From: Nocardioides euryhalodurans
Lineage (GTDB): Bacteria; Actinomycetota; Actinomycetes; Propionibacteriales; Nocardioidaceae
Assembly (NCBI RefSeq): GCF_004564375.1
Contig: NZ_CP038267.1
Span: 2,978,501-3,042,500 of the forward strand
Direction of reading: 5' to 3'
Length of the DNA: 64,000 nucleotides
Both the position numbers and the translations under genes were made by a program. The notes under the pieces are model-generated. The model was not told where the DNA came from, searched no databases, and worked only from the letters and a program-made list of their open reading frames with translations. How positions within the stretch are numbered: the stretch's first letter is position 1; each line of letters opens with the position of its first letter. Shown here piece after piece: positions 5,846 to 52,106 of the stretch.

Positions 5846-7060
5846 CTACGAGGTCGTCCCACCTGCGGAGGAGCCACTCTCGATCTCAGCGCGTGCCTCG
5901 AGTCGCTGCAGCTGGCGGGCGGCAGCCTCGCGGCCGCCGAGACCGAAGGCGAGGGCTGCGGCCGCGGCGCCACCGACGACGATCGCTCCGAAAGCCAGGT
6001 TGACGATGGAGTCGGCCAGACCCATCGAGCCGAGACCGATCGCGACGAACAATGCGATGGTGGCGTACCTCAGGATCTGTCCTGCCCGGCCGGAGACAAA
6101 CCTGGGGGCCAGGTTCGCGATGAAGACCCCGACCGCGATGATGGCGACGCCGAGGAGGATGCCGCCGGCGACCTCGAGGACGGTGTCGAGGATGCGGGTG
6201 ACTTCGGGGAAGCCGAGCACGCGAGTGGCAGCAACCGCGAAGAAGAGCACGATCGCGACCTGTACGGCCCTCGCGATCACCCTGGAAGGCGGGGTGGCTG
6301 TGGTCCCGCCAGCCCCCAGGTCGGCGAGGACGCGGTCGGTGCCGAGGCCCTGAAGTGTCGACTCCAGCAGCGGTGCCACGAATCGGGAGATCAGGTAACC
6401 GATCCCCAGCAGCAGCGCCGCGGCGATGACCGACGGGATGGCGTTGAGGATCAGGGTCAGCATCTGCGTGGCCGGCTCCGCGATCGCCTCGATGCCGAGG
6501 ACCTGCAGGGCTGAGATCGACACCACGATGAGGATCAGCGCGAAGACCAGCTGACCAGCGATGCGCGAGAGCGGCGGGGCCGTCGTGGTCGTGGCGGCGC
6601 GGGTTCCCGTCGTCCCGGGTGAGGTAGCAGCCGGCTCATCGGTGCGCCCCAGCCAGTTGTCCGCTCCGGCCGTGCGCAGGGACGTCTCGACCAGCTGCCG
6701 CACGATCCGGGCCAGGACCAGGCCGATGAAGAAGATGATGGCGGCACCGGCGATGCCCGGGAGCGCTGCAAGGACCCTCTGAAGCAGATCCTGGATGGGC
6801 GCCACCACCTCGGTGAGCGCGAAGAGGTTCAGGATCGCGATCAGCCCGAACAACCAGACCACCAGCGAGGCGATCGTGGCCAGGGACTGCCCGAGTGACT
6901 GTCCGCTGGAGTCCTCCCGTTGCAGCACCTTCACCCGCTCGAGGCTCTTGCTCAACAAGGTCTTGATCAGCTTCGCGATCAGCCACGTGACGATGAGGAT
7001 GACCACCGCCGCGGCCACGCGCGTCAAGATTCCCGCGACGTCGAAATCGTCCAGAGTCAT
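5846..7060 (-). CDS. MscS-like mechanosensitive channel family membrane protein (TM-helix repeat type)
   Basis: A 404-residue polytopic protein with about eight to ten membrane segments: VAAAVVILIVTWLIAKLIKT at the N-terminus, IASLVVWLFGLIAILNLF, LPGIAGAAIIFFIGLVLARI, LVFALILIVVSISALQVLGI and further helices to the C-terminus. The repeated pattern of helix plus amphipathic LIKTLL or RQLVE stretch is that of the conserved TM-helix repeats of MscS-related proteins. The last helix (AFGLGGREAAARQLQRLE) matches the pore-lining AFGLGG-type helix, but no large cytosolic beta domain follows, so a true channel function is uncertain. A Thr-rich linker lies at ~145-165. It may be expressed with the related gene upstream at 7273-8004, with a ~210-nt gap. 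Confidence 0.78.
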   Translation of the reverse strand: MTLDDFDVAGILTRVAAAVVILIVTWLIAKLIKTLLSKSLERVKVLQREDSSGQSLGQSLATIASLVVWLFGLIAILNLFALTEVVAPIQDLLQRVLAALPGIAGAAIIFFIGLVLARIVRQLVETSLRTAGADNWLGRTDEPAATSPGTTGTRAATTTTAPPLSRIAGQLVFALILIVVSISALQVLGIEAIAEPATQMLTLILNAIPSVIAAALLLGIGYLISRFVAPLLESTLQGLGTDRVLADLGAGGTTATPPSRVIARAVQVAIVLFFAVAATRVLGFPEVTRILDTVLEVAGGILLGVAIIAVGVFIANLAPRFVSGRAGQILRYATIALFVAIGLGSMGLADSIVNLAFGAIVVGGAAAAALAFGLGGREAAARQLQRLEARAEIESGSSAGGTTS

Positions 7061-28179: not shown

Positions 28180-30906
28180 ATGGTCGACGCCCTGGTGCGG
28201 ACCAAGCTGGCTCAGCCGCACCCCCGGCCGGGACTGGTGGACCGGGCGCGGCTGACCGAGGTTCTGGTGCGTGCCCGGGACGCTGCCGTGGTCCTGGTGT
28301 CGGCACCGGCGGGCTTCGGGAAGACGACCCTGCTCGCCTCCGCACTGACACGCGAGCCTCGGGTGGCCTGGGTGTCGCTGGATGCCCGCGACAGCGACGC
28401 CGCCCGCTTCTGGGCCTACGTCCTGCATGCCCTCGAGGGAGCGAGCCCCGGGTGCGCGACCACCGCCTTGGCACTCCTCGAGACGGGCCACGGGTCGTTC
28501 GAGGACGTCGTGGCGGCCCTGGTGAACGAGCTCAGCGTACGTCCTGTGGACCTGACCCTGGTCCTGGACGACTACCACCTCGCCGACGGCCCCGAGGTGA
28601 GCGACGGCGTGACCTTGTTGTTGGAACACCGGCCACCGCAGCTGCACCTGGTCCTCGGCACCCGGGCCGACCCGGCTCTGCCGTTGTCGCGGCTTCGTGC
28701 TCGCGGCGACTTGGTCGAGGTCCGTGCTGCCGACCTGCGCTTCACCACCGAGGAGGCAGACAGCTACCTCAACGTGGTCCACGACCTCGGTCTCACCATG
28801 GCGGACGTGGTCGCGTTGGAGTCGCGGACCGAAGGATGGGCAGCAGCCCTGCAGCTGGCCGCCCTGTCGCTGCGGAACCGTGACGACCCGCCCGCGTTCA
28901 TCGCATCGTTCGCAGGCGACGGCCGGTACGTCGTGGACTACCTGGCCGACGAGGTGCTCGACCAGCAACCTCCTCAGCTGCGCCGGTTCCTGCTGGACAC
29001 CTCCGTGCTGGCACGCCTGCATGGCCCGCTGTGTGACGCGGTGACCGGCCCGGTCGCCGACATGCCGGGCACTGCGGTGCTGGAGCTGCTGGAGCGCCGC
29101 AACCTGCTGTTGGTCCCCCTGGACGACCACCGCCGCTGGTACCGCTACCACCACCTGTTCGCCGACGTCCTGCGGTCACGGCTGCGGGCCGAACGCCCTG
29201 ACGACATCCCGGTACTCCACAGCCGGGCGAGCGTCTGGTACGACGAGGTCGGGGACGTGGAGGCAGCTGTGCGGCATGCCTTCGCCGCCGATGACGTGGA
29301 CCGGGCCGCGGACCTCATCGAGGTGGCCGCACCGGAGCTGCGCCGTCGGCGGGCGGAGGGGGTGCTGCGCAGCTGGGTGTCGATGGTGCCGCCGGAGGTG
29401 GTGGCACGCCGGCCGGTGCTGGGGAGCACCTTCGTCGGCGCCCTGATGGCGAGCAACATCTTCGACGAAGTCAGCGGCAGGCTCGATGCCATCGAGGCCA
29501 GCCTGGCAGCAGCCGAGGCACCGGTGGTTCGGGACCAGGCCGAGTGGCAGCGGCTGCCTGCCGTGGTGGCGACGCAGCGGGCCGGCCTCGCGCTGGTGGG
29601 TGGGGACGTGGCAGGGACCCTCGCACACGCTGAGGAGGCGATGTCCCGGGCCACGGCGGGTGATGAGCTGACACGCGCGTCTGCCGCGGCGTTGAAGGGT
29701 CTGGCGTCCTGGACGTCCGGGAACCTCAGCGCAGCACTCGATGGATACCTGGCTGCGACGCGAGGGCTTGCGGCGACGGGCCACGTCTCGGATGCTCTGG
29801 CCTGCACGATCACGGTGGTCGAGCTGGAGCTGTTGCACGGCGACCTCGACGCCGCCCGGGACGCGGTGCACCGGGCGCTCGCCCTTGTCGACACTGCGGA
29901 CGAGGCCTCGCCGAGGACCGGTGCGGTGGTGCGCGGGACGGCAGACATGTGGGTGGCGATGGCCCGCGTGACGTGGGAGCAGGGTGACGTCGAAGCGACC
30001 GCCCAGCACCTGCAGCGGGCCGGTGACCTGGGCGAGGCAGCAGGCCTGGCACAGCAGCCGTACCGGTGGCGGGTCGCGCTGGCCCTCGTCCGCGAGAGCC
30101 AGGGTGACCTGGCGGCCGCCGACGCGCTGCTCACCGAGGCCGACCGCTTGTTCAACAGCGACTTCTCGCCCAACGTTCGCCCCGTCCCCGCGGTACGCGC
30201 CGGCGTGCACATCAGGGCCGGCGACCTCGACGCCGCCTACGGCTGGGCGACAGCCGCAGGGGTCACGGCGGCTGATGAGCTGACCTACCTGCGGGAGTGC
30301 GAGCACATCACGCTGGCCCGGCTGCTGTTGGCCGACCACGAGGCGACCGGAGACCCGGCGAAGCTGGGACAGGCGGTGGAGCTGCTGACCCGCCTCCACG
30401 GAGCGGCTGCCGAGGCCGGGCGCACTGCCGCAGTGGTCGAGACCGACCTCTTGCTGGTCGCCGCCCGCGACATCGCCGGCGGACACGATGGGGCACTCCA
30501 CCAGCTCGGGCGCGTGGTGGACCTGCTTCGGCCACGACACTGGCTGCGACCGCTCCTCGATGCGCCACCCCGGGTGCAGGACCTCCTGCGGCGGCTACCC
30601 GACGCAACGCCGCTCCCAGCCGCGGCAGGCGCCCCGGTTCCCGCTCGGACCCTGACGGCGTCAGAAACGCACGCGCCCGCGGTGGAGCCGGCCGCGGAGC
30701 CAGGAGCGCCCCTCGTCGTGTCGTTGAGCAGCCGCGAGCTCGACGTCCTTCGCCTGCTCGGGTCAGATCTCGACGGACCCGCCATCGCCCGCCACCTCAA
30801 CGTGTCCCTGCCGACGGTCCGGACCCACACCCAACACATCTACGCCAAGCTCGGCGTCAACAACCGCCGCGCCGCCGTCCGCCGCGGGCACCAGCTGCAC
30901 CTGTGA
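28180..30906 (+). CDS. Large ATP-binding LuxR (LAL / MalT-like) regulator, copy 1
   Basis: A 908-residue LAL regulator. It starts with the MalT-type opening VRTKLAQPHPRPGLVDRARL. Walker A is APAGFGKTTLL (~residues 42-52) and Walker B is LTLVLDDYHLA (~128-138). A helical TPR-like region fills the centre. A LuxR HTH closes the protein: LSSRELDVLRLLGSDLDGPA then IARHLNVSLPTVRTHTQHIY. MalT-type proteins are activators switched by ATP and an inducer bound to the superhelix. It is followed by a small protein, DUF4386 and an ABC relic on the same strand, the probable targets. Confidence 0.9.
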   Translation: MVDALVRTKLAQPHPRPGLVDRARLTEVLVRARDAAVVLVSAPAGFGKTTLLASALTREPRVAWVSLDARDSDAARFWAYVLHALEGASPGCATTALALLETGHGSFEDVVAALVNELSVRPVDLTLVLDDYHLADGPEVSDGVTLLLEHRPPQLHLVLGTRADPALPLSRLRARGDLVEVRAADLRFTTEEADSYLNVVHDLGLTMADVVALESRTEGWAAALQLAALSLRNRDDPPAFIASFAGDGRYVVDYLADEVLDQQPPQLRRFLLDTSVLARLHGPLCDAVTGPVADMPGTAVLELLERRNLLLVPLDDHRRWYRYHHLFADVLRSRLRAERPDDIPVLHSRASVWYDEVGDVEAAVRHAFAADDVDRAADLIEVAAPELRRRRAEGVLRSWVSMVPPEVVARRPVLGSTFVGALMASNIFDEVSGRLDAIEASLAAAEAPVVRDQAEWQRLPAVVATQRAGLALVGGDVAGTLAHAEEAMSRATAGDELTRASAAALKGLASWTSGNLSAALDGYLAATRGLAATGHVSDALACTITVVELELLHGDLDAARDAVHRALALVDTADEASPRTGAVVRGTADMWVAMARVTWEQGDVEATAQHLQRAGDLGEAAGLAQQPYRWRVALALVRESQGDLAAADALLTEADRLFNSDFSPNVRPVPAVRAGVHIRAGDLDAAYGWATAAGVTAADELTYLRECEHITLARLLLADHEATGDPAKLGQAVELLTRLHGAAAEAGRTAAVVETDLLLVAARDIAGGHDGALHQLGRVVDLLRPRHWLRPLLDAPPRVQDLLRRLPDATPLPAAAGAPVPARTLTASETHAPAVEPAAEPGAPLVVSLSSRELDVLRLLGSDLDGPAIARHLNVSLPTVRTHTQHIYAKLGVNNRRAAVRRGHQLHL

Positions 30907-31006: not shown

Positions 31007-31246
31007 ATGAGCAGCACCTCGCACGAGCAGCACGGCCACTGGTACGAGATCCGCATCCAGGGCCGGCTCGACGAGCGCTGGTCGGCCTGGTTCGACGACC
31101 TGACCCTCTCGCAGGAAGACGGCACCACCGTCCTCCGCGGACACGTCACCGACCAGGCGGCGCTCCACGGCCTGCTGCACAAGCTCCGCGACCTCGGGCT
31201 TCCACTCCTCTCAGTCACCCGAGCCGAACCTGGCCCGCACTCCTGA
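31007..31246 (+). CDS. Small conserved protein paired with the LAL regulator, copy 1
   Basis: A 79-residue soluble protein (WYEIRIQGRLDERWSAWFDD; TTVLRGHVTDQAALHGLLHK; LRDLGLPLLSVTRAEPG). The predicted order is beta-helix-beta-beta-helix-beta, like a ferredoxin-type or ACT-like half-domain. It clearly resembles the 67-residue protein at 51440, sharing the I-R-[IV]-x5-[LE], T-L/V-x-G-x-[VL]-[TD]-[DT]-Q, [AE]-[LE]-x-G-[VL]-L and L-G-[IL] positions. Both lie beside a LAL regulator. Function is unknown; it may be an effector-binding partner or a co-regulator. It probably has a leaderless mRNA. Confidence 0.75.
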   Translation: MSSTSHEQHGHWYEIRIQGRLDERWSAWFDDLTLSQEDGTTVLRGHVTDQAALHGLLHKLRDLGLPLLSVTRAEPGPHS

Positions 31247-31301: not shown

Positions 31302-32045
31302 ATGACCACCACAGTGCAGACCGTCGCCCGTTCCCGGACGGCAACCGACCCGACCCGACGTGCCGCCACCATCGTCGGCTGGCTGTTCGTCCTGACCTAC
31401 GTCACGTCCATCGCGGCCAAGATCTGGTTCTACCCACCCCTGTTCGACGGGAACTACATCACCGGACCCGGGCAGGACACCCGCGTCCTGTGGGGGGCCT
31501 TCTCCGAGGCCATCCTCATCATCGCCAACATCGGCACCGCCACCGTCATCTACACCGTCATCAAGAAGCGGCACCCGAACCTGGCCCTCAGCTTCGTGGC
31601 TGCCCGCGTCATGGAGAGCGTGTTCATCGCGGTCGGCATCCTGGCGGTCCTCACCGTGGTCACCCTCAGACAGGACTACGCAGCAGCAGGCGAGCAGTCC
31701 GCGGCCGGCCTGGCCGTCGTCGGCGACGCGTTCCTCGCCATGCAGGAGTGGACCTTTGGCCTCGGCCCGTCGTTCGTCGTCGGCGTCGGGAACGGCTGCA
31801 TCCTCGGCTACATCATGTACCGAACGGGTCTGGTACCTCGGCGACTGGCGATGTTCGGTCTCATCGGCGGCCCTCTGATCATCTTGTCCGGATCTGCCGC
31901 GATGCTGGGGTACATCGAGCTCGACGGGACGTGGCAGATGCTCTCCGCCGCTCCCGAGTTCGTGTGGGAGCTCGGCCTCGGCATCTATCTGATCGTCAAG
32001 GGCTTCAAGTCCTCGCCCAGCACCGCCGAGGTGAGCACCCGATGA
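31302..32045 (+). CDS. DUF4386 family membrane protein
   Basis: A 247-residue protein with about six membrane helices (ATIVGWLFVLTYVTSIAAKI; AFSEAILIIANIGTATVIYT; ARVMESVFIAVGILAVLTVV; GLGPSFVVGVGNGCILGYIM; MFGLIGGPLIILSGSAAMLG; FVWELGLGIYLIVKGF). The Glu in the second and third helices and the WELGLGIYLI end are typical of DUF4386. Function unknown. It lies 55 nt after the small LAL-partner gene and overlaps the ABC relic by ATGA, suggesting one message induced by the LAL regulator. Confidence 0.85.
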   Translation: MTTTVQTVARSRTATDPTRRAATIVGWLFVLTYVTSIAAKIWFYPPLFDGNYITGPGQDTRVLWGAFSEAILIIANIGTATVIYTVIKKRHPNLALSFVAARVMESVFIAVGILAVLTVVTLRQDYAAAGEQSAAGLAVVGDAFLAMQEWTFGLGPSFVVGVGNGCILGYIMYRTGLVPRRLAMFGLIGGPLIILSGSAAMLGYIELDGTWQMLSAAPEFVWELGLGIYLIVKGFKSSPSTAEVSTR

Positions 32046-32269
32046 TCACCGTCGGAGGTGTCACCAAGGCCTACGGCGACGTCACGGCCGTGGATGACGT
32101 GAGCATCGTGGCCCAGCCTGGACCCATCAAAGAATTTCTGGGTCCGCATGGGACCGGCAAGTCGACCACCCTCCGAGTGGTGGTCGGTCCTGGCCCTCGA
32201 CTGCCGGATCGCACGCGAGACCTTTGGTTGATGTCGCAAGCGGGAAGCTGTTCCGGCGTGATCGCGTAG
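32042..32269 (+). pseudogene. Truncated ABC transporter ATP-binding gene
   Basis: A 75-residue frame starting ITVGGVTKAYGDVTAVDDVS, reaching an altered Walker A, GPHGTGKSTTLRVVVG, then losing all similarity (PGPRLPDRTRDLW). The signature motif, Walker B and everything after are absent. Its start is nearly the same as the intact ATPase at 35700 (IAVEGVTKQYGHFTAVDDVT). KEF replaces TGF before the P-loop and His replaces Asn within it. It is a decayed duplicate or a deletion scar, still coupled to DUF4386 by ATGA. Confidence 0.75.
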
Positions 32270-32670
32270 CGGGGCGCGGCCCAGCCCTTGAGCCCGCCGG
32301 CAAATAGTCGGCTTCGCACGCCGCCACCGCCCTCGGACTGTGGTTCACTGAAAGTCATCGCCGCCCCGCTTCAAGACCAGAGAGGGGCACGAACGTGACG
32401 AAAATCCGTGCAACCCGGATGCCCCTCGCCGCGGGTACGGCCGTCTGGCTCGCCCGGCAGAGCCTCCACCGCGTCTGCTCCTGGGGTTAGCCACCCGCAG
32501 GCATCGGCCTGCCGTCGTCGGCCCTATGGGCCACCAGCGGTCATCCACTCCTCGGGAATGCCCGCGACGCGGGCCCGCCCCCACCGCAGAAGTTCCACGC
32601 TCAGGTGTCTACCCACGCCGAGCCAATGCCCGGGCGCCCGCACAGGACGGCCGACACCGAGGAGAACGAC
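32270..32670. other. Non-coding or decayed stretch before the MMPL gene
   Basis: About 400 nt after the broken ABC gene. I see no protein to support and no remnant of the lost ATPase 3' part. The MMPL promoter and its ribosome binding site (GAGGAG, just before 32671) lie at its end. The frame of the MMPL gene extends to 32605 without a second good start. Confidence 0.4.
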
Positions 32671-34884
32671 ATGTTGGTACGTCTCGCTGACTGGTGCTAC
32701 CGCCGCCGTCGTCTCGTGGTCCTCGCCTGGATCGCCGCCCTCGTGGGTGGCTTCGCCCTGGCCAACACCTTCGGCGGCGAGCTCAAGCAGGACTACCTGC
32801 AACCCGGCTCGGAGTCCAGAGCCGCCGCGGACACCCTCGAGAACAACTTTCCGCAGAGGGCCGGCGACACCATCCAGGTCGTCGTCCACTCCGAGGACGG
32901 CTTCGCCTCACCCCAGGCGCAAGCCCGCGCAGAGGCAATCTTCACCGATGTGGCCGACAGTGACCACGTGGTCGGTGTCGCCAGCCCGTTCGTGGACGGC
33001 GGCGCCCAGCAGATCTCCCAGGACGGCACCACGGCGTACGCCGAGGTCGCCCTCGACCAACGCGACAGCGACTTCACCCCCGATCAGGCCAAGGCACTGG
33101 TCGAGCCCATCCTCGAGGCCGGCGACGACACCGTCCAGGTCGAGGTCGGCGGCCCGGTGGCTGCGCTGTCCCAGACGGCCCCCTTCGGCACCGAAGGCAT
33201 CGGGCTCCTCGCCGCCGCCGTCATCTTGCTGTTCACCTTCGGGTCCGCGGTCGCGATGGGACTGCCTCTAGTCACGGCCGTGTTCGGGCTCGGCACCGCG
33301 ATCGCACTCGGCGAGCTCCTGCGCCGGGTGGTCGACGTCCCGGACTGGGCCCCACCCACCGCGGCGATGGTCGGCCTCGGGGTCGGCATCGACTACGCCT
33401 TGCTCATCGTCACCCGGTTCCGCAGCAACCTCGCCGAGGGGCACGAGCCACGGAGGGCCACCGTGGGCGCGATCGCGACCGCCGGGCGGGCTGCCGTGTT
33501 CGCCGGCCTCGTCGTCATCGTCTCGATGCTCGGCATCCTGCTGGTCGGCCTGTCGTCCCTGAACGGGTTCGCGTTCACCGTGTCGCTGGCCGTGCTGCTG
33601 GTCATGACCGCCTCGGTGACGCTGCTGCCCGCGCTGCTGGGGTTCACGGGACGCAACATCGAGCGGCTGCACGTACCGTTCTTCGGCAAGAACCCGCACG
33701 CCTACAACACCTCACGCTGGTACCGGTGGAGCCGCTTCGTCCAACGCCGCCCGTGGGCCGCGGCGGTCGGTGGACTCGCGGTCCTGCTCACGCTCGCCGC
33801 TCCGTTCCTCGGACTCCGGCTCGGGTTCCCCGACGCCCAGAACGACCCGCCTTCCTTCACCACCAGCAGGGCCTACGCCCTGCTCGCCGACGGGTTCGGC
33901 CCCGGCTTCTCCGGTCCGCTGGTCCTCACCGTGCAGGGCGCCTCCGGCGGCGAGCTGCTCACGGCCACGGACGCGGTCGGCGACCAGTTGGCCGAGGTCG
34001 ACGGCGTCGCTCGTGTCTCCCCGGCCGTCGTCAACGACGACGGCGACACCGCCGTCCTCAGCGTGGTCGCCACCACCTCCCCGCAGGACGAGGCCACCTC
34101 GGACCTGGTCGACGTGCTGCGCGACACTGCCGTCCCGGATGCCGTCGCGGGCACTGGCCTGACCGTCGACGTCGGCGGGATGGCCGCCGCGAACCTCGAC
34201 ATCACCCGGGGGGTCGCTGACCGGCTACTGCTCTTCTTCGGCGGCGTGCTCCTGGTGTCGTTCCTGCTGCTGATGATGGTCTTCCGCTCAGTAGTGGTCC
34301 CGCTCAAGGCGGTGCTGATGAACCTGCTCGCGAGCGCCGCCGCCTTCGGCGTCCTCACCGTCGCGGTCAGCGGCGGATGGCTGGGAGAGCTCGTCGGGAT
34401 CCCGGGGGCCACCCCGGTGCCGATCCTGCTGCCGATCGGGATCTTCGCCATCCTGTTCGGGTTGTCCATGGACTACGAGGTCTTCCTGCTCTCGCGGATC
34501 AAGGAGGAGTACGACCGGACCGGCGACAACGCACTCGCCGTCGCCGACGGTCTCGCCAAGTCCGCTCGGGTCATCACTGCCGGCGCTGCGGTCATGGTCA
34601 CCGTGTTCCTCTCCTTCGCCCTCGGGGTCGACGTCTACGGCAAGATGTTCGGCATCGGCCTTGCGGCCGCCGTCCTCATCGACGCCACCATCGTCCGGAT
34701 GGTGCTCGTCCCGGCGACCATGGAGCTCCTCGGCGACCGGAACTGGTGGCTGCCCGGCTGGCTCGACAGGCTGCTGCCCACCATCGACGTCGACGGCCAT
34801 GACGCCACCGACAGCGATCTCGGTCTCCCGGACACACCAGTCAGCGAGCCCCCGGCCCCGGTAGCAACCGGGAGCAGCACGTGA
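32671..34884 (+). CDS. MMPL family transporter (RND-like)
   Basis: A 737-residue membrane protein of the actinobacterial MMPL family (drug or lipid export). Two halves are visible: first helix RLVVLAWIAALVGGFALANT and a periplasmic domain, then helices with the conserved GLGVGIDYALLIVTRFRSNL; the second half repeats with IFAILFGLSMDYEVFLLSRI and the Asp-Tyr pair used for proton relay (GIDYA and SMDYE). The ATG at 32671 is set by GAGGAG at the right distance. No partner mycolate genes are nearby, so the substrate is open. It is followed by coupled small genes. Confidence 0.9.
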   Translation: MLVRLADWCYRRRRLVVLAWIAALVGGFALANTFGGELKQDYLQPGSESRAAADTLENNFPQRAGDTIQVVVHSEDGFASPQAQARAEAIFTDVADSDHVVGVASPFVDGGAQQISQDGTTAYAEVALDQRDSDFTPDQAKALVEPILEAGDDTVQVEVGGPVAALSQTAPFGTEGIGLLAAAVILLFTFGSAVAMGLPLVTAVFGLGTAIALGELLRRVVDVPDWAPPTAAMVGLGVGIDYALLIVTRFRSNLAEGHEPRRATVGAIATAGRAAVFAGLVVIVSMLGILLVGLSSLNGFAFTVSLAVLLVMTASVTLLPALLGFTGRNIERLHVPFFGKNPHAYNTSRWYRWSRFVQRRPWAAAVGGLAVLLTLAAPFLGLRLGFPDAQNDPPSFTTSRAYALLADGFGPGFSGPLVLTVQGASGGELLTATDAVGDQLAEVDGVARVSPAVVNDDGDTAVLSVVATTSPQDEATSDLVDVLRDTAVPDAVAGTGLTVDVGGMAAANLDITRGVADRLLLFFGGVLLVSFLLLMMVFRSVVVPLKAVLMNLLASAAAFGVLTVAVSGGWLGELVGIPGATPVPILLPIGIFAILFGLSMDYEVFLLSRIKEEYDRTGDNALAVADGLAKSARVITAGAAVMVTVFLSFALGVDVYGKMFGIGLAAAVLIDATIVRMVLVPATMELLGDRNWWLPGWLDRLLPTIDVDGHDATDSDLGLPDTPVSEPPAPVATGSST

Positions 34885-47432: not shown

Positions 47433-47924
47433 TCAGTCGGTCTCGTCGAAGACGTCGCGGATCGCCTGCTCCTGGTCGTCGCTGAGGTTGGTGAAGATCA
47501 GCTCGGGCTGCTGGCCGGTGAACGCCTCGCGGACCTTGTCCATCACGGCGTCCGAGGACATGACGAACAGCGCCGAGGTCCCGGGCGTCACCTGGTCCCG
47601 CACCTTCTTGATGAACGAGTCGTCGATGCCGACGTCGGCCAGCGACCCGGCCAGGGCGCCGCTCGCGGCACCGATGGCGGCCCCGAGCAGCGGCACGAAG
47701 AAGATGAGCCCGAAGAGCATGCCCCAGAAGGCGCCACCGAGGGCGCCGGCGCCGGCGAGGTTCTGCAGCTGACGCGTCTTCGGCTTCTTCTTCCCCTCGG
47801 GCCACGAGACGGTCGCGGCGTCGTGGATGGTGATCAGCTTCTGGGTGGCGAGGTTGCGCAACGTGTCGGTGGCGGCGTCCGCCCCGGCTGCGTCGGGAAA
47901 CTTCCACACGGTCAGCGTGGCCAT
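47433..47924 (-). CDS. DUF1269 family protein
   Basis: A 163-residue protein with the family core TLTVWKFPDAAGADAATDTL, then TIHDAATVSWPEGKKKPKTR and a Gly-rich double hairpin of membrane-like stretches (GALGGAFWGMLFGLIFFVPL, LGAAIGAASGALAGSLAD), ending VTPGTSALFVMSSDAVMDKV. DUF1269 proteins are often stress-linked and may associate with membranes. ATG 47924 replaces a longer reading. Confidence 0.85.
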   Translation of the reverse strand: MATLTVWKFPDAAGADAATDTLRNLATQKLITIHDAATVSWPEGKKKPKTRQLQNLAGAGALGGAFWGMLFGLIFFVPLLGAAIGAASGALAGSLADVGIDDSFIKKVRDQVTPGTSALFVMSSDAVMDKVREAFTGQQPELIFTNLSDDQEQAIRDVFDETD

Positions 47925-48060: not shown

Positions 48061-48600
48061 ATGACCACCTCACGCGCAAGCGGCCGCACCAACCGGGCCG
48101 TGCTCAACAGCCTCACGGAAGCGGAGTGGTTGCTGGTGCAGGAGACCGAGCCCGCCGCCCTCGCCTCCCTCGGGGAGGACGACCTCCTCCTGCTCCACGA
48201 CCGGGTACGTCGGGCGCGGAAGAAGTACCTCGGCCAGTACCGCCGCGGCGCCAGCTCCGCGGTGGCCGAGCGCGGCGGCCGGGGAGCGTCGTTCCGGACC
48301 AACCAGCGGGCGCGCGACAAGGCCGAGGTCTTCGAGACCGCCCTGGCGCGGGTGAGCCGGGAGGTGGGCCGGGCCGCTAACCGGACCGCCGCGGAGCTGC
48401 GTCAGGAGCGGCTGGCCGCTGCTCGTGCCGAGAAGGGCGCCGGGCCGGCGGTGGGCGGCTCCGCAGCGGCGTCGACGCCGGAGCGGGCGAGCACGCGCCG
48501 ACGTACGACCAAGACCACGGGCGGGATCAAGAAGGACGCCCACACCCGCGCTGCCGGCACCCGCCGCCAGGCCGCGCGGGACACCCGGCGCAGCGGCTGA
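48061..48600 (+). CDS. Basic hypothetical protein with disordered Lys/Arg/Thr-rich tail
   Basis: A 179-residue protein. The first half is helical and acidic/hydrophobic (NSLTEAEWLLVQETEPAALA; LASLGEDDLLLLHDRVRRAR) and the second half is an Arg/Ala-rich tail ending with RRTTKTTGGIKKDAHTR. The N-terminal part looks like a conserved actinobacterial domain without a name. ATG 48061 is taken; an ATG at 48043 also exists. It ends 8 nt before the convergent LAL gene. Confidence 0.6.
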   Translation: MTTSRASGRTNRAVLNSLTEAEWLLVQETEPAALASLGEDDLLLLHDRVRRARKKYLGQYRRGASSAVAERGGRGASFRTNQRARDKAEVFETALARVSREVGRAANRTAAELRQERLAAARAEKGAGPAVGGSAAASTPERASTRRRTTKTTGGIKKDAHTRAAGTRRQAARDTRRSG

Positions 48601-48608
48601 GCTCAGGG

Positions 48609-51245
48609 TCAGATCAGCCGCAGGTTGCGAGCCACCGTCAGCGCCTCGCTGCGCCGCCCGACGGCCAGCTTGCCGTAGAGGCTGGAGACGTGGGTCTTCA
48701 CGGTGTTCTCGGAGACGAACAGCGCGGCCGCGATGTCGGCGTACGTCGACCCGCGGGCCAGCTCGTTGAGGACCTCCCGCTCGCGGGGGCTCAGGGGCGG
48801 CCGCACGGTCGCCTCGGTGGGCGTCGACCGCTCGCGCCCGGTCGGCGTGCTCGACGCGATCATCGTGACGTAGTCGGGTCGCTGCGCCGCCGCCTCGTCC
48901 AGCTCGACCGACCACGGCGTGGGCGTGCTCCGGACCAGGGCGCCGAGCAGCGCGCGGATCGGCGTGCCGAGACGGCACCAGCCCATGAAGGGGACCGCGT
49001 TCCGGCGTACCTCCGTCGCCACCGCCGCCTCCCGCAGGTGCTCGAGGGCATCCTCGGTCTGGCCGAGCGCGTCGAGCAGCTGGGCCGCGCAGGCGAGCGC
49101 CAGCGGCCGGGTCGCCGGCTGGGAGTAGGTCGTGTCGGCGGCGGCCCGGACGAACTCGGCCGCCGCGCCCTTGCGGTCACCGGCGAGGTCCCGGGCGAGC
49201 CCCTCGACCAGGGCCGCCTCACCGAGCGCCCCGACCTCGAGCAGCCGGTCGGCGCTGTCGCGCAGGACGTGGGCGTCCGCGGAGAGGTGGGCCAGGAAGG
49301 ACTGCTCGAGCAGCACCACGACGGCCAGGTGGTCGGGCAGGGGCGGGAGGTCCAGGTGTGACTCCAGGGCCCGCTCGGCGTCGATGAGGGCGCTGCGCGC
49401 CAGCGCGAGCCGTGCGACGAGCTCGCGGGTCCAGAACTTCGAGCACAGGTCGGCGGGGTGGATCGGCGCGGAGGGTCCCTGCAGGTGCTCGGGAGGGTCG
49501 AGCGCCGCCAGCCAGGCGTGGTCGAGCACCGCGGGCGCCTCGCAGAGTCGGGCGAGGTGCAGCGCCAGCCGCGCGCGGGCGGGGGTGTGCCGGGCCCGCC
49601 AGTAGGGCATCGCCTCGAGCCTGGCGAGTGCCTCGGTCGCCAGCTCGATGCAGGACTGCTCGTGACCGGCCATGAACTGGGTGACCGCGAGGTGGGACAG
49701 CGCCGCCGCCTCGAGCGCGGGCAGGTCGCGGGTGCGGCACAGCCAGATCGCGGCGGTCAGGTTGACCTCGGCCTCGCCGAGCTCGCCGAGCCAGTTCTGG
49801 GTGACTGCCAGCTCGGTGAGCAGCAGCGGCAGCTCGCTGCCGGCCCGCTCCCGGTCCTCCGCGAGGACCACGCGCTTGGCGTTGCCGACCGCCGCGAACA
49901 TCGGTTCCAGGCCGAGCCGCGCCCGCATCAGCCGCAGCATCGCCAGCTGCGAGGGGTGCTCGGTGGGCAGGTCGGAACGCAGGATCCGGTCCATCCAGTG
50001 GGTGGCCTGCGGGATGTCGCCGGCGAACCAGCGGTTCATCGCCAGGCTGAACCACGTCTCGGGGTGCTCGTCGACGGTGTCGGGGTGCAGCCGGGCGAGG
50101 TCACCGATCCGCTCGCCCCGCCCCTGCGCGGTCAGCGTGACGCCCTCCTCGGCCAGCAGCTCGACGCAGGCATCGAGCGCCCCCACGGCCATGAGCCGGG
50201 GGAGGGCGAACCGGGTGTCCCCGCGGGAGCGGTCCAGCCGGACGGCGTCCACCACCGACTCGCGGGCCCGCTCCACCTCCGCACCGCCGGCCGCGAGCGT
50301 ACGCCGGGCGAGCTCGGTCAGCAGGGGATGGATCCGGTAGGTGACCTCGTCCGCTGCCTCCTGCGGAAGACCTACCGGACCGTCGGGTGTGGCCGGCACC
50401 CGCGAGACGAGCAGGCCGGTCGACTCGAGGTCGGCCAGCAGGTCGCCGGCACCGCGGTCGCGGGACAGCTGGGCGGCGGTCGTGGTCGTGACGACGGGCT
50501 CCGCGGCGAGCGACAGCAGCACGTGCCGCTGGCGTGGGGACAGGCTCTCGAAGACCTCGCGCGCCACCCGGTCGGTGACCGAGGCGCCGCCGGCGCCGAT
50601 CCGGGCGGCCGCCGCCGCCGGGTCCTGTGCGCTCCCGGCGGCCCGGGCGGCGAGCACGGTCGCGGCGCACCATCCCTGGGTCCGCTCGACGAGCGGGTCG
50701 ACGACCGCCGGGTCCGCGGTCCCCGTGTGGGCCTCGATCAGCGAGCGGGCCTCCGCCTCGTCGAGCCGCAGCACGTCACCACGCAGCACGGTGAAGTGAC
50801 CGAGCAGCTCGGGGACCAACCGGGTGACGGGCAGGTCCCAGCGGGCGGCGAGCAGCAGCCGCATCGAGAGCGGGTCCTCGCCGAGCAGGCGGTCGAGCTC
50901 GTGGAGGGAGGACGCCGGCAGGGCGTGGGCGTCGTCGATGACCACCAGGCGAGGGCGTACGCCCTCCCGGTCGCCGCGCGCCTCGCTCAGCAACGACGAC
51001 AGCCGTTCGGGGCGCCAGGTCCGGTCGGCGTGCACCCAGGTGACCTCGCCGGTCTGGCCGGAGTGGTGCAGCCAGCCGCTGATCCCGAGCGTCTTGCCGG
51101 CGCCTGCCGGGGCCACGAGCAGCGTCATCGGACGCTCGCACGCGTCGTCCAGCCGTCGCCACAGGTCTGGCCTGGGCACGTAGACGCGCGGCAGGCGCGG
51201 CAGGGCCGCCTGCCTGGTCCCCGTCGTTCCCGCTCCCCCGGTCAT
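48609..51245 (-). CDS. Large ATP-binding LuxR (LAL / MalT-like) regulator, copy 2
   Basis: An 878-residue regulator. N-terminal ATPase: Walker [12 protein letters not shown] (~residues 44-54) and Walker [11 protein letters not shown] (~100-109). A long helical TPR-like middle follows, then a LuxR HTH at the end: [20 protein letters not shown] then [20 protein letters not shown]. Relative to copy 1 it is shorter at the N-terminus ([20 protein letters not shown]) and belongs to a different LAL subfamily. ATG 51245 is taken. The small protein gene at 51440 is divergent from it. Confidence 0.9.
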
Positions 51246-51439
51246 GAGGTTCCCTTCGGACGCTGAGCCCCATGTCCTCAAGGGGAAAGTCTCGACCAGC
51301 GCTCGCCTCGGCACAAGGGGTGGTCCGGAGCGCCGACGGTCCGCCCATTTCGGGTGGGGCGTGGCCGGGCCGGTCCTGCCTACCGTGGGTCATGGCCGTC
51401 CACGAGGCGGGAGGAGGGGGACCAGGAGGTGCCCAGGGC

Positions 51440-51643
51440 ATGACCAAGATGCTGATCCGCGTCGACGCCGAGCTGTCCGACGAGCTCGCCGGCGCGTTCC
51501 CCCACCTCGCGGTCCAGCACCACCGCCCGCAGACGACGCTCGTGGGCGACCTCACCGACCAGGAGGAGCTCCAGGGCGTGCTCCAGCTCCTGGCCTCGCT
51601 CGGCATCCAGATCATCGAGGTGGTGACCATCCCGGGAGGCTGA
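51440..51643 (+). CDS. Small conserved protein paired with the LAL regulator, copy 2
   Basis: A 67-residue protein ([56 protein letters not shown]). It shares length, strand/helix pattern and key positions with the 79-residue protein at 31007 (I-R-[IV], T-x-[LV]-x-G-x-[VL]-[TD]-x2-Q, L-x-G-[VL]-L, L-G-[IL]). AGGAGG upstream of 51440 sets the start; an ATG at 51392 gives a longer Gly-rich N-terminus. Divergent from the LAL regulator (194 nt apart). Function unknown. Confidence 0.72.
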
Positions 51644-51671: not shown

Positions 51672-51698
51672 TGCCCGCCATCCGGACTGTGGCGGGCA
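51672..51698 (+). terminator. Terminator after the small LAL-partner gene
   Basis: TGCCCGCCA, 9-nt loop, TGGCGGGCA: a perfect 9-bp stem 29 nt after the stop, followed by TGCTTCATTT. Confidence 0.65.
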
Positions 51699-51902: not shown

Positions 51903-52106
51903 ATGGCTCAAGGCACCGTGAAGTGGTTCAACGCCGAGAAGGGTTTCGGCTTCATTGCGCAGGAGGACGGCGGCGACGACGTCTTCGTGCACTACTCGGC
52001 GATCCAGTCGCAGGGCTACAAGTCCCTCGACGAGAACCAGAAGGTCGAGTTCGACGTCACCCAGGGCCCCAAGGGCCCGCAGGCGGAGAACGTTCGCGCC
52101 CTCTGA
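51903..52106 (+). CDS. Cold shock protein (CspA family)
   Basis: A 67-residue OB-fold nucleic-acid chaperone: [20 protein letters not shown] carries RNP1 (KGFGFI) and [19 protein letters not shown] carries RNP2 (VFVHY). It ends [11 protein letters not shown], as usual for actinobacterial Csp. It binds single-stranded RNA/DNA and melts secondary structure. Monocistronic, with its own leader and terminator. ATG 51903. Confidence 0.95.

Follow-up and report, generated by a model that had tools for sequence, protein, structure and literature searches.

MalT is the archetype of the STAND regulators. The available text of one study, together with a related one, describes MalY as a protein inhibitor that binds the NOD region of MalT and stabilizes its resting form, with the inducer competing MalY off (PMC4381067; related, PMC6468293), and titles cited in the first of these name MalK and Aes as further protein partners of MalT of Escherichia coli (PMC4381067). 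Among the Streptomyces LAL proteins, SCO0877 and SCO7173 resemble the regulator discussed below in being large ATP-binding LuxR regulators, and the accessible part of a report on Streptomyces coelicolor places SCO7173 over the 3' end of the gene for an 89-aa hypothetical protein (PMC3282765), which is possibly a member of the small-protein family described here. LuxR-type STAND regulators under the control of proteins are a known kind; the new part is this small protein (SM) as a candidate protein effector. A full-text literature search (titles and abstract openings, with subscription papers largely outside it) returned no description of the SM-LAL pairing.

The window, by which we mean the whole stretch of DNA that was analyzed, comprises 64,000 nucleotides of the 4.02-Mb genome of Nocardioides euryhalodurans (positions 2978501-3042500). 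A sequence-only reading of it had remarked that the 67-aa product encoded at 51440 resembles the 79-aa product encoded at 31007, that each lies beside a LAL gene, and that two such pairings argue for a functional unit rather than chance; it had proposed a profile-profile comparison of the two small proteins, structure prediction for both, and a genome-wide search for further pairs. The features of the two loci are as follows.

47436..47924, minus strand: DUF1269 protein gene, downstream of LAL2 (Pfam DUF1269, 3.8e-38)
48609..51314, minus strand: LAL2, large ATP-binding LuxR-type STAND regulator (P-loop, GerE, weak TPR)
51246..51439, no strand: divergent intergenic region between LAL2 and SM2, 194 nt
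51440..51643, plus strand: SM2, 67-aa small protein with a predicted ferredoxin-like fold, copy 2 (ORF, profile match, AF2 model, dN<dS)
28180..30906, plus strand: LAL1, MalT-like STAND regulator of SM1 (TPR_MalT 135.8 bits, GerE 48.2 bits)
31007..31246, plus strand: SM1, 79-aa homologue of SM2, copy 1 (BLASTP, profile, AF2, hhalign)
31314..32045, plus strand: DUF4386 membrane-type protein, after SM1 (Pfam, 3.3e-42)

LAL2 is 901 aa long when read from a GTG at 51314, with an in-frame ATG alternative at 51245, and it is with this ATG that the 194-nt gap reported earlier between the divergent SM2 and LAL genes holds. The protein has the makeup of a LAL: about 900 aa, an N-terminal P-loop (APAGAGKT), and a C-terminal GerE domain (62.3 bits versus a Pfam cut-off of 23.5). 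The likeness to E. coli MalT, which is controlled by protein partners, is that LAL2 is also a MalT-type STAND ATPase with a C-terminal LuxR helix-turn-helix; the difference is that LAL2, at 83.7 bits, falls far under the 537-bit cut-off of the NCBIfam MalT equivalog (NF003420), which LAL1 does not reach either (356.5 bits). The two regulators of the window share 30% identity over 264 aa of their ATPase parts, and Pfam TPR_MalT, which is listed for LAL1, is not listed to E 10 for LAL2, where only weak matches to TPR_2, TPR_1, and TPR_12 appear. The earlier assignment of the two LALs to different subfamilies agrees with these comparisons.

The intergenic region between LAL2 and SM2 carries a 14-nt imperfect direct repeat (51354 and 51385, 31-nt spacing), for which any role is only a guess, and it gave no sigma-70-type promoter match. 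A Shine-Dalgarno-like AGGAGG lies 10 bases 5' of the SM2 ATG. On the 3' side of SM2 are a terminator-like hairpin (51672-51698, plus strand) and then a cold-shock domain gene (51924-52103, plus strand); SM2 may be transcribed alone. A 166-aa ORF (48100-48597, plus strand) with no Pfam match sits between the DUF1269 gene and LAL2. At the other locus, SM1 is followed by the DUF4386 gene and then, by eye, by an MMPL-type transporter ORF (31314-34884 for the two together, plus strand); the annotation of a Chlorohelix plasmid likewise shows LAL, SM, and MMPL in this order.

The small proteins belong to no significant Pfam or NCBIfam family, as searched with SM1 and SM2. In simple codon counts, dN was below dS in 10/10 pairs of SM genes (three including SM2 and one including SM1), which fits the SM genes being real and under purifying selection. 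In a BLASTP alignment of 62 aa, SM1 and SM2 are 31% identical (E 1e-8, calculated for this one comparison), and hhalign matches a profile of 16 SM1-type sequences to one of five SM2-type sequences at 97.7% probability (E 2.4e-12, 63 columns). Judged by these sequences, SM1 and SM2 are homologous and form one family. The AF2 model of SM2, made from a single sequence, has a pLDDT of 85.6 and places strands at residues 3-9, 24-28, 31-36, and 57-64 and helices at 13-19 and 41-53; that of SM1, made from five sequences, has a pLDDT of 79.8 and the same order of elements. This order, β-α-β-β-α-β, is ferredoxin-like in both models, a likeness judged by the succession of strands and helices and not by superposition. 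The resemblance noticed in the sequence-only reading is thereby confirmed by both of the comparisons it had proposed. In a weighted set of 57 LAL-paired SM sequences, Asp40 never varies, and conservation is 0.87-0.97 at Thr32, Gly36, Gln41, Leu44, Gly46, Leu48, and Gly55; the conserved start of helix 2, after strand 3, is the leading candidate functional surface of SM.

The predicted fold likens SM to the ACT and RAM (Lrp/AsnC) domains. The top structural match of the SM2 model is the regulatory subunit of acetohydroxyacid synthase (Z 8.8), and those of the SM1 model are Lrp/AsnC proteins (Z 7.6). As far as models of this kind can be read, the ACT/RAM resemblance is generic, with Z values of at most 8.8 that are level with those of ribosomal S6 variants and SecDF P4, and we claim no specific relative. 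SM differs from the ACT/RAM proteins in that neither SM1 nor SM2 matches Pfam ACT or RAM to E 10 and in that its ORF comes without an enzyme or helix-turn-helix domain; the degree of similarity is one that a common arrangement can account for. A search for remote sequence relatives of SM in solved structures reached a best E of 0.46, which is not significant.

Other leads on the family were followed and dropped. A fifth SM in the genome, suggested by a single-protein search (E 0.47), is absent from the family-profile matches. A viral or phage origin found no relatives among the 21 pattern matches of a viral-contig scan, and in phage records neither distant blastn with the SM2 region nor a protein search with the SM of Acaryochloris gave a match. 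With regard to anti-phage defence, PADLOC matched only the LAL helix-turn-helix to CARF-type models and nothing in SM.

In the genome of the window, a 12-sequence profile that includes all four copies finds SM at four places at E ≤1, which besides SM1 and SM2 (E 2.1e-28) are at 540 kb and 796 kb. Each copy lies 0.1 to 1.6 kb from a LAL. The proposed search for further pairs did uncover them, here and in other genomes. The same genome has 60 GerE matches (55 over the cut-off; 15 in open frames of at least 800 aa). In the tree, its four paired LALs share a single branch with every paired LAL of other genomes or records except that of L101, which lies 1.8 kb from its SM and groups with unpaired LALs. 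Nine other LALs of the genome that could be placed full-length lie outside the paired branch and have no SM nearby, and 12 further loci in it, covering the other 11 LAL-size frames and two shorter ORFs, yielded no SM at iE <1. Apart from L101, the partners of SM come from one branch of LALs.

Beyond this genome, an order sample of 57 genomes (the window's own included) holds SM in 15, at 28 places, with a LAL within 2 kb at no fewer than 19 and within 20 kb at no fewer than 26; these LAL counts are lower bounds from a separate genome-wide LAL search, and the number expected within 20 kb is 0.57, as calculated from that LAL list with genome sizes rounded. When a LAL is counted within 6 kb at a profile score of at least 60, with SM hits of E >1e-6 omitted (the one at L069 and a fragmentary one at L074) and the L006 locus entered once only, L046 being a duplicate of it, linkage is found at 4/4 places in the window's genome, 15/22 in the order sample, 6/6 on plasmids (six of the seven plasmid records with SM matches), 2/3 in the closest relatives, and 39/43 of the non-own places listed in a phylum sample of 197 genomes, at least 29 of which carry SM. 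This last figure is 38/43 with a stricter LAL score, and the total over all sets is 66/78, in which some LALs are shared between SM places (L073, L076, and L093). The LAL profile and its alignment were built from SM-linked LALs, so its scores lean toward the paired branch. Relative to the LAL, the 66 linked SM genes are mostly in tandem downstream (48), and the others are divergent (11), in tandem upstream (5), or convergent (2). On plasmids of Chlorohelix (Chloroflexota), two Deinococcus strains, and Pseudomonas, SM lies 0.1 to 0.8 kb downstream of the LAL; other genes separate the two, over 3 to 4 kb, on those of Acaryochloris and Streptomyces anulatus, and a stop breaks the SM frame on the plasmid of Deinococcus sp. 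KNUC1210. At the level of whole genomes, and among the matches listed, 14 of the 57 have both SM and a paired-branch LAL (E ≤1e-100), eight have the LAL only, 34 have neither, and one has SM only (Fisher p 5e-7); in this one, the SM match is incomplete and sits on a contig of 10 kb (L068). The pairing of SM with LAL is not chance, and the functional unit first proposed from two neighboring cases is supported as a conserved, coinherited gene pair.

The linkage has exceptions. Seven of the 22 order-sample SM loci have no LAL within 6 kb; in six of these (L057-L060, L062, and L063) a LAL lies 9 to 20 kb off, and in the seventh, G038 (L046/L006), it lies 7 kb off. The six form a subgroup of genus g4, which belongs to the window's order and has genomes of about 8 Mb. 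At one of them, L059, SM stands among SfLAP, LPG_synthase_TM, and DUF6325 genes, and similar ORFs can be made out by eye at several other g4 loci. At L095, the LAL is 6.4 kb from SM. Neither the 6-kb check nor the genome-wide LAL search showed a LAL near SM at L099 or in the related genomes of L106 and L108. Conversely, 12 of 37 LALs of the paired branch (E ≤1e-100, among the matches listed) have no SM within 20 kb, which suggests that not every such LAL needs one; a search for missed SM genes at eight loci holding nine of these 12 strong LALs gave none that was convincing (best iE 0.8). At L069 (E 3e-4), a 153-aa ORF (6530-6991, plus strand) has two weak SM-like stretches (iE 6e-6 and 0.14), and no LAL was found on the stretch of its contig that was fetched.

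Do the two genes also share a history? For 57 pairs (near full-length LAL within 3.5 kb; 43 genomes or records, nine with two or more pairs), distances in the SM and LAL trees correlate with an r of 0.78. Shuffling the pairing within genomes only, which keeps species history in place, lowers the mean to 0.48, with a highest value of 0.776, and 0/2,000 shuffles reach the observed r. The two trees, which carry no support values, disagree at L053/L055, L093, L101, and L104. The branch of SM2, with the window, L056, L007, and L008, is mirrored by a branch of LAL2, even as the layout varies from divergent (the window; L007, over 2.1 kb) to tandem with SM upstream (L056) or downstream (L008). The LALs of L056 and L008 are 46% and 41% identical to LAL2, respectively; that of L007 stands furthest from the others, and plain BLAST aligns it to LAL2 only in the helix-turn-helix.

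Third genes recur as well. Each of the four LAL-bearing loci in the SM2 branch has a DUF1269-like gene, confirmed by Pfam in the window, L056, and L007 and called in L008 only by a profile made here, and this recurrence suggests that LAL2, SM2, and DUF1269 may be a trio. At SM1-type loci, a DUF4386-like neighbor occurs at 16 of 29 (21 of 112 neighbor proteins), and the 119 neighbors at other loci include SHOCT, DUF7144, DUF1269, DUF6325, PLDc_N, and DUF308. Across 14 loci that have LAL, SM, and DUF4386, the partial r is 0.41 for SM with LAL versus 0.03 for SM with DUF4386, which in this small sample favors LAL as the closest partner of SM. In the sub-branch of the 796-kb copy (L015, L064, L065, L066, and L102), an extra ORF of 68 to 90 aa sits beside SM at 5/5 loci, and a profile of these five sequences matches that of the SM1 type at 92% (E 6e-7). 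At the 796-kb locus itself (L015, 5716-5952, minus strand), a second, divergent SM-like ORF lies between SM and LAL. The second small protein at five loci and the double stretch at L069 hint that the SM domain works as a pair or dimer.

How should these associations be interpreted? One could suppose that SM is what the LAL controls: the regulator would activate SM and a neighboring membrane-protein gene, and the two products would act together in an envelope or stress response. The recurrent neighbors, DUF4386 as well as the families listed for the other loci, are of membrane or envelope type, SM adjoins DUF4386 at L108 with no LAL near it, and SM stands well apart from its LAL in the g4 subgroup; against this, it is the LAL and not DUF4386 that SM follows at the three-gene loci, few as they are, the neighbor families differ between SM1-type and other loci whereas a LAL is usual in both, and in the 57-genome sample SM is absent where such a LAL is absent, among the matches listed, save for one partial hit. 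Because SM is sometimes far from a LAL or without one, the view of SM as an output keeps a substantial minority share of our belief.

It is improbable, in our estimation, that SM and LAL are mere fellow travelers on islands and plasmids, linked in function by nothing more than shared transcription. SM does occur on plasmids, and its presence is patchy in both the order and the phylum samples, but the pairing outlasts rearrangement of the two genes, in order as well as in orientation, both inside a single branch and between phyla, and the sub-branches are largely matched between the two trees. We give even less credence to SM as a small metal- or ligand-handling protein under LAL control, akin to a copper chaperone or an acylphosphatase; the fold matches that suggest it, Atx1-type chaperones and acylphosphatases, are generic ferredoxin-like ones, CxxC occurs in 0/57 paired SM sequences (SM1 and SM2 included), and neither SM1 nor SM2 matches Pfam HMA or acylphosphatase to E 10.

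Alongside the observed linkage, homology, fold prediction, coinheritance, and purifying selection of SM and LAL, we posit that SM2 and LAL2 constitute a two-gene unit in which SM2 is a dedicated, ACT/RAM-shaped, and probably dimeric effector that gates the STAND ATPase of LAL2, a reading to which we assign a probability of about 0.5. In this model, LAL2 is a STAND regulator of the MalT-like branch, with a P-loop ATPase, a repeat region, and a C-terminal LuxR helix-turn-helix, and SM2, probably as a dimer, would bind it. SM2 would thereby set whether the LAL2 ATPase opens and multimerizes on DNA, as MalY, Aes, and MalK do for MalT. The signal is probably either a small molecule that SM binds or the condition of the cell envelope, the latter because a membrane-type protein is the product of the third gene that recurs (DUF1269 with SM2, DUF4386 with SM1); this protein would either supply the signal or be the chief output. 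SM is likened to the MalT effectors by role and not by sequence, and it differs from them as a stand-alone, predicted ferredoxin-like protein of 67 to 79 aa that is encoded near its LAL. A direct SM-LAL interaction is a proposed part of this scheme, as are the dimer, the ligand, and the sign of control; genes in tight linkage coinherit even when their products do not touch. More tentatively, SM could be an as yet unnamed family of protein effectors that serves a single large branch of the MalT-like STAND regulators, and that branch alone, in several bacterial phyla: a small ferredoxin-like dimer that would gate their ATPase switch.

Actinomycetes have many LAL regulators, most of them, to our knowledge, with no known input. 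Because SM is encoded near LALs and evolves with them, it is a direct candidate for such an input. If this model is correct, many orphan LALs would gain a genetically encoded input, and an unannotated protein family would gain a place in a pathway.
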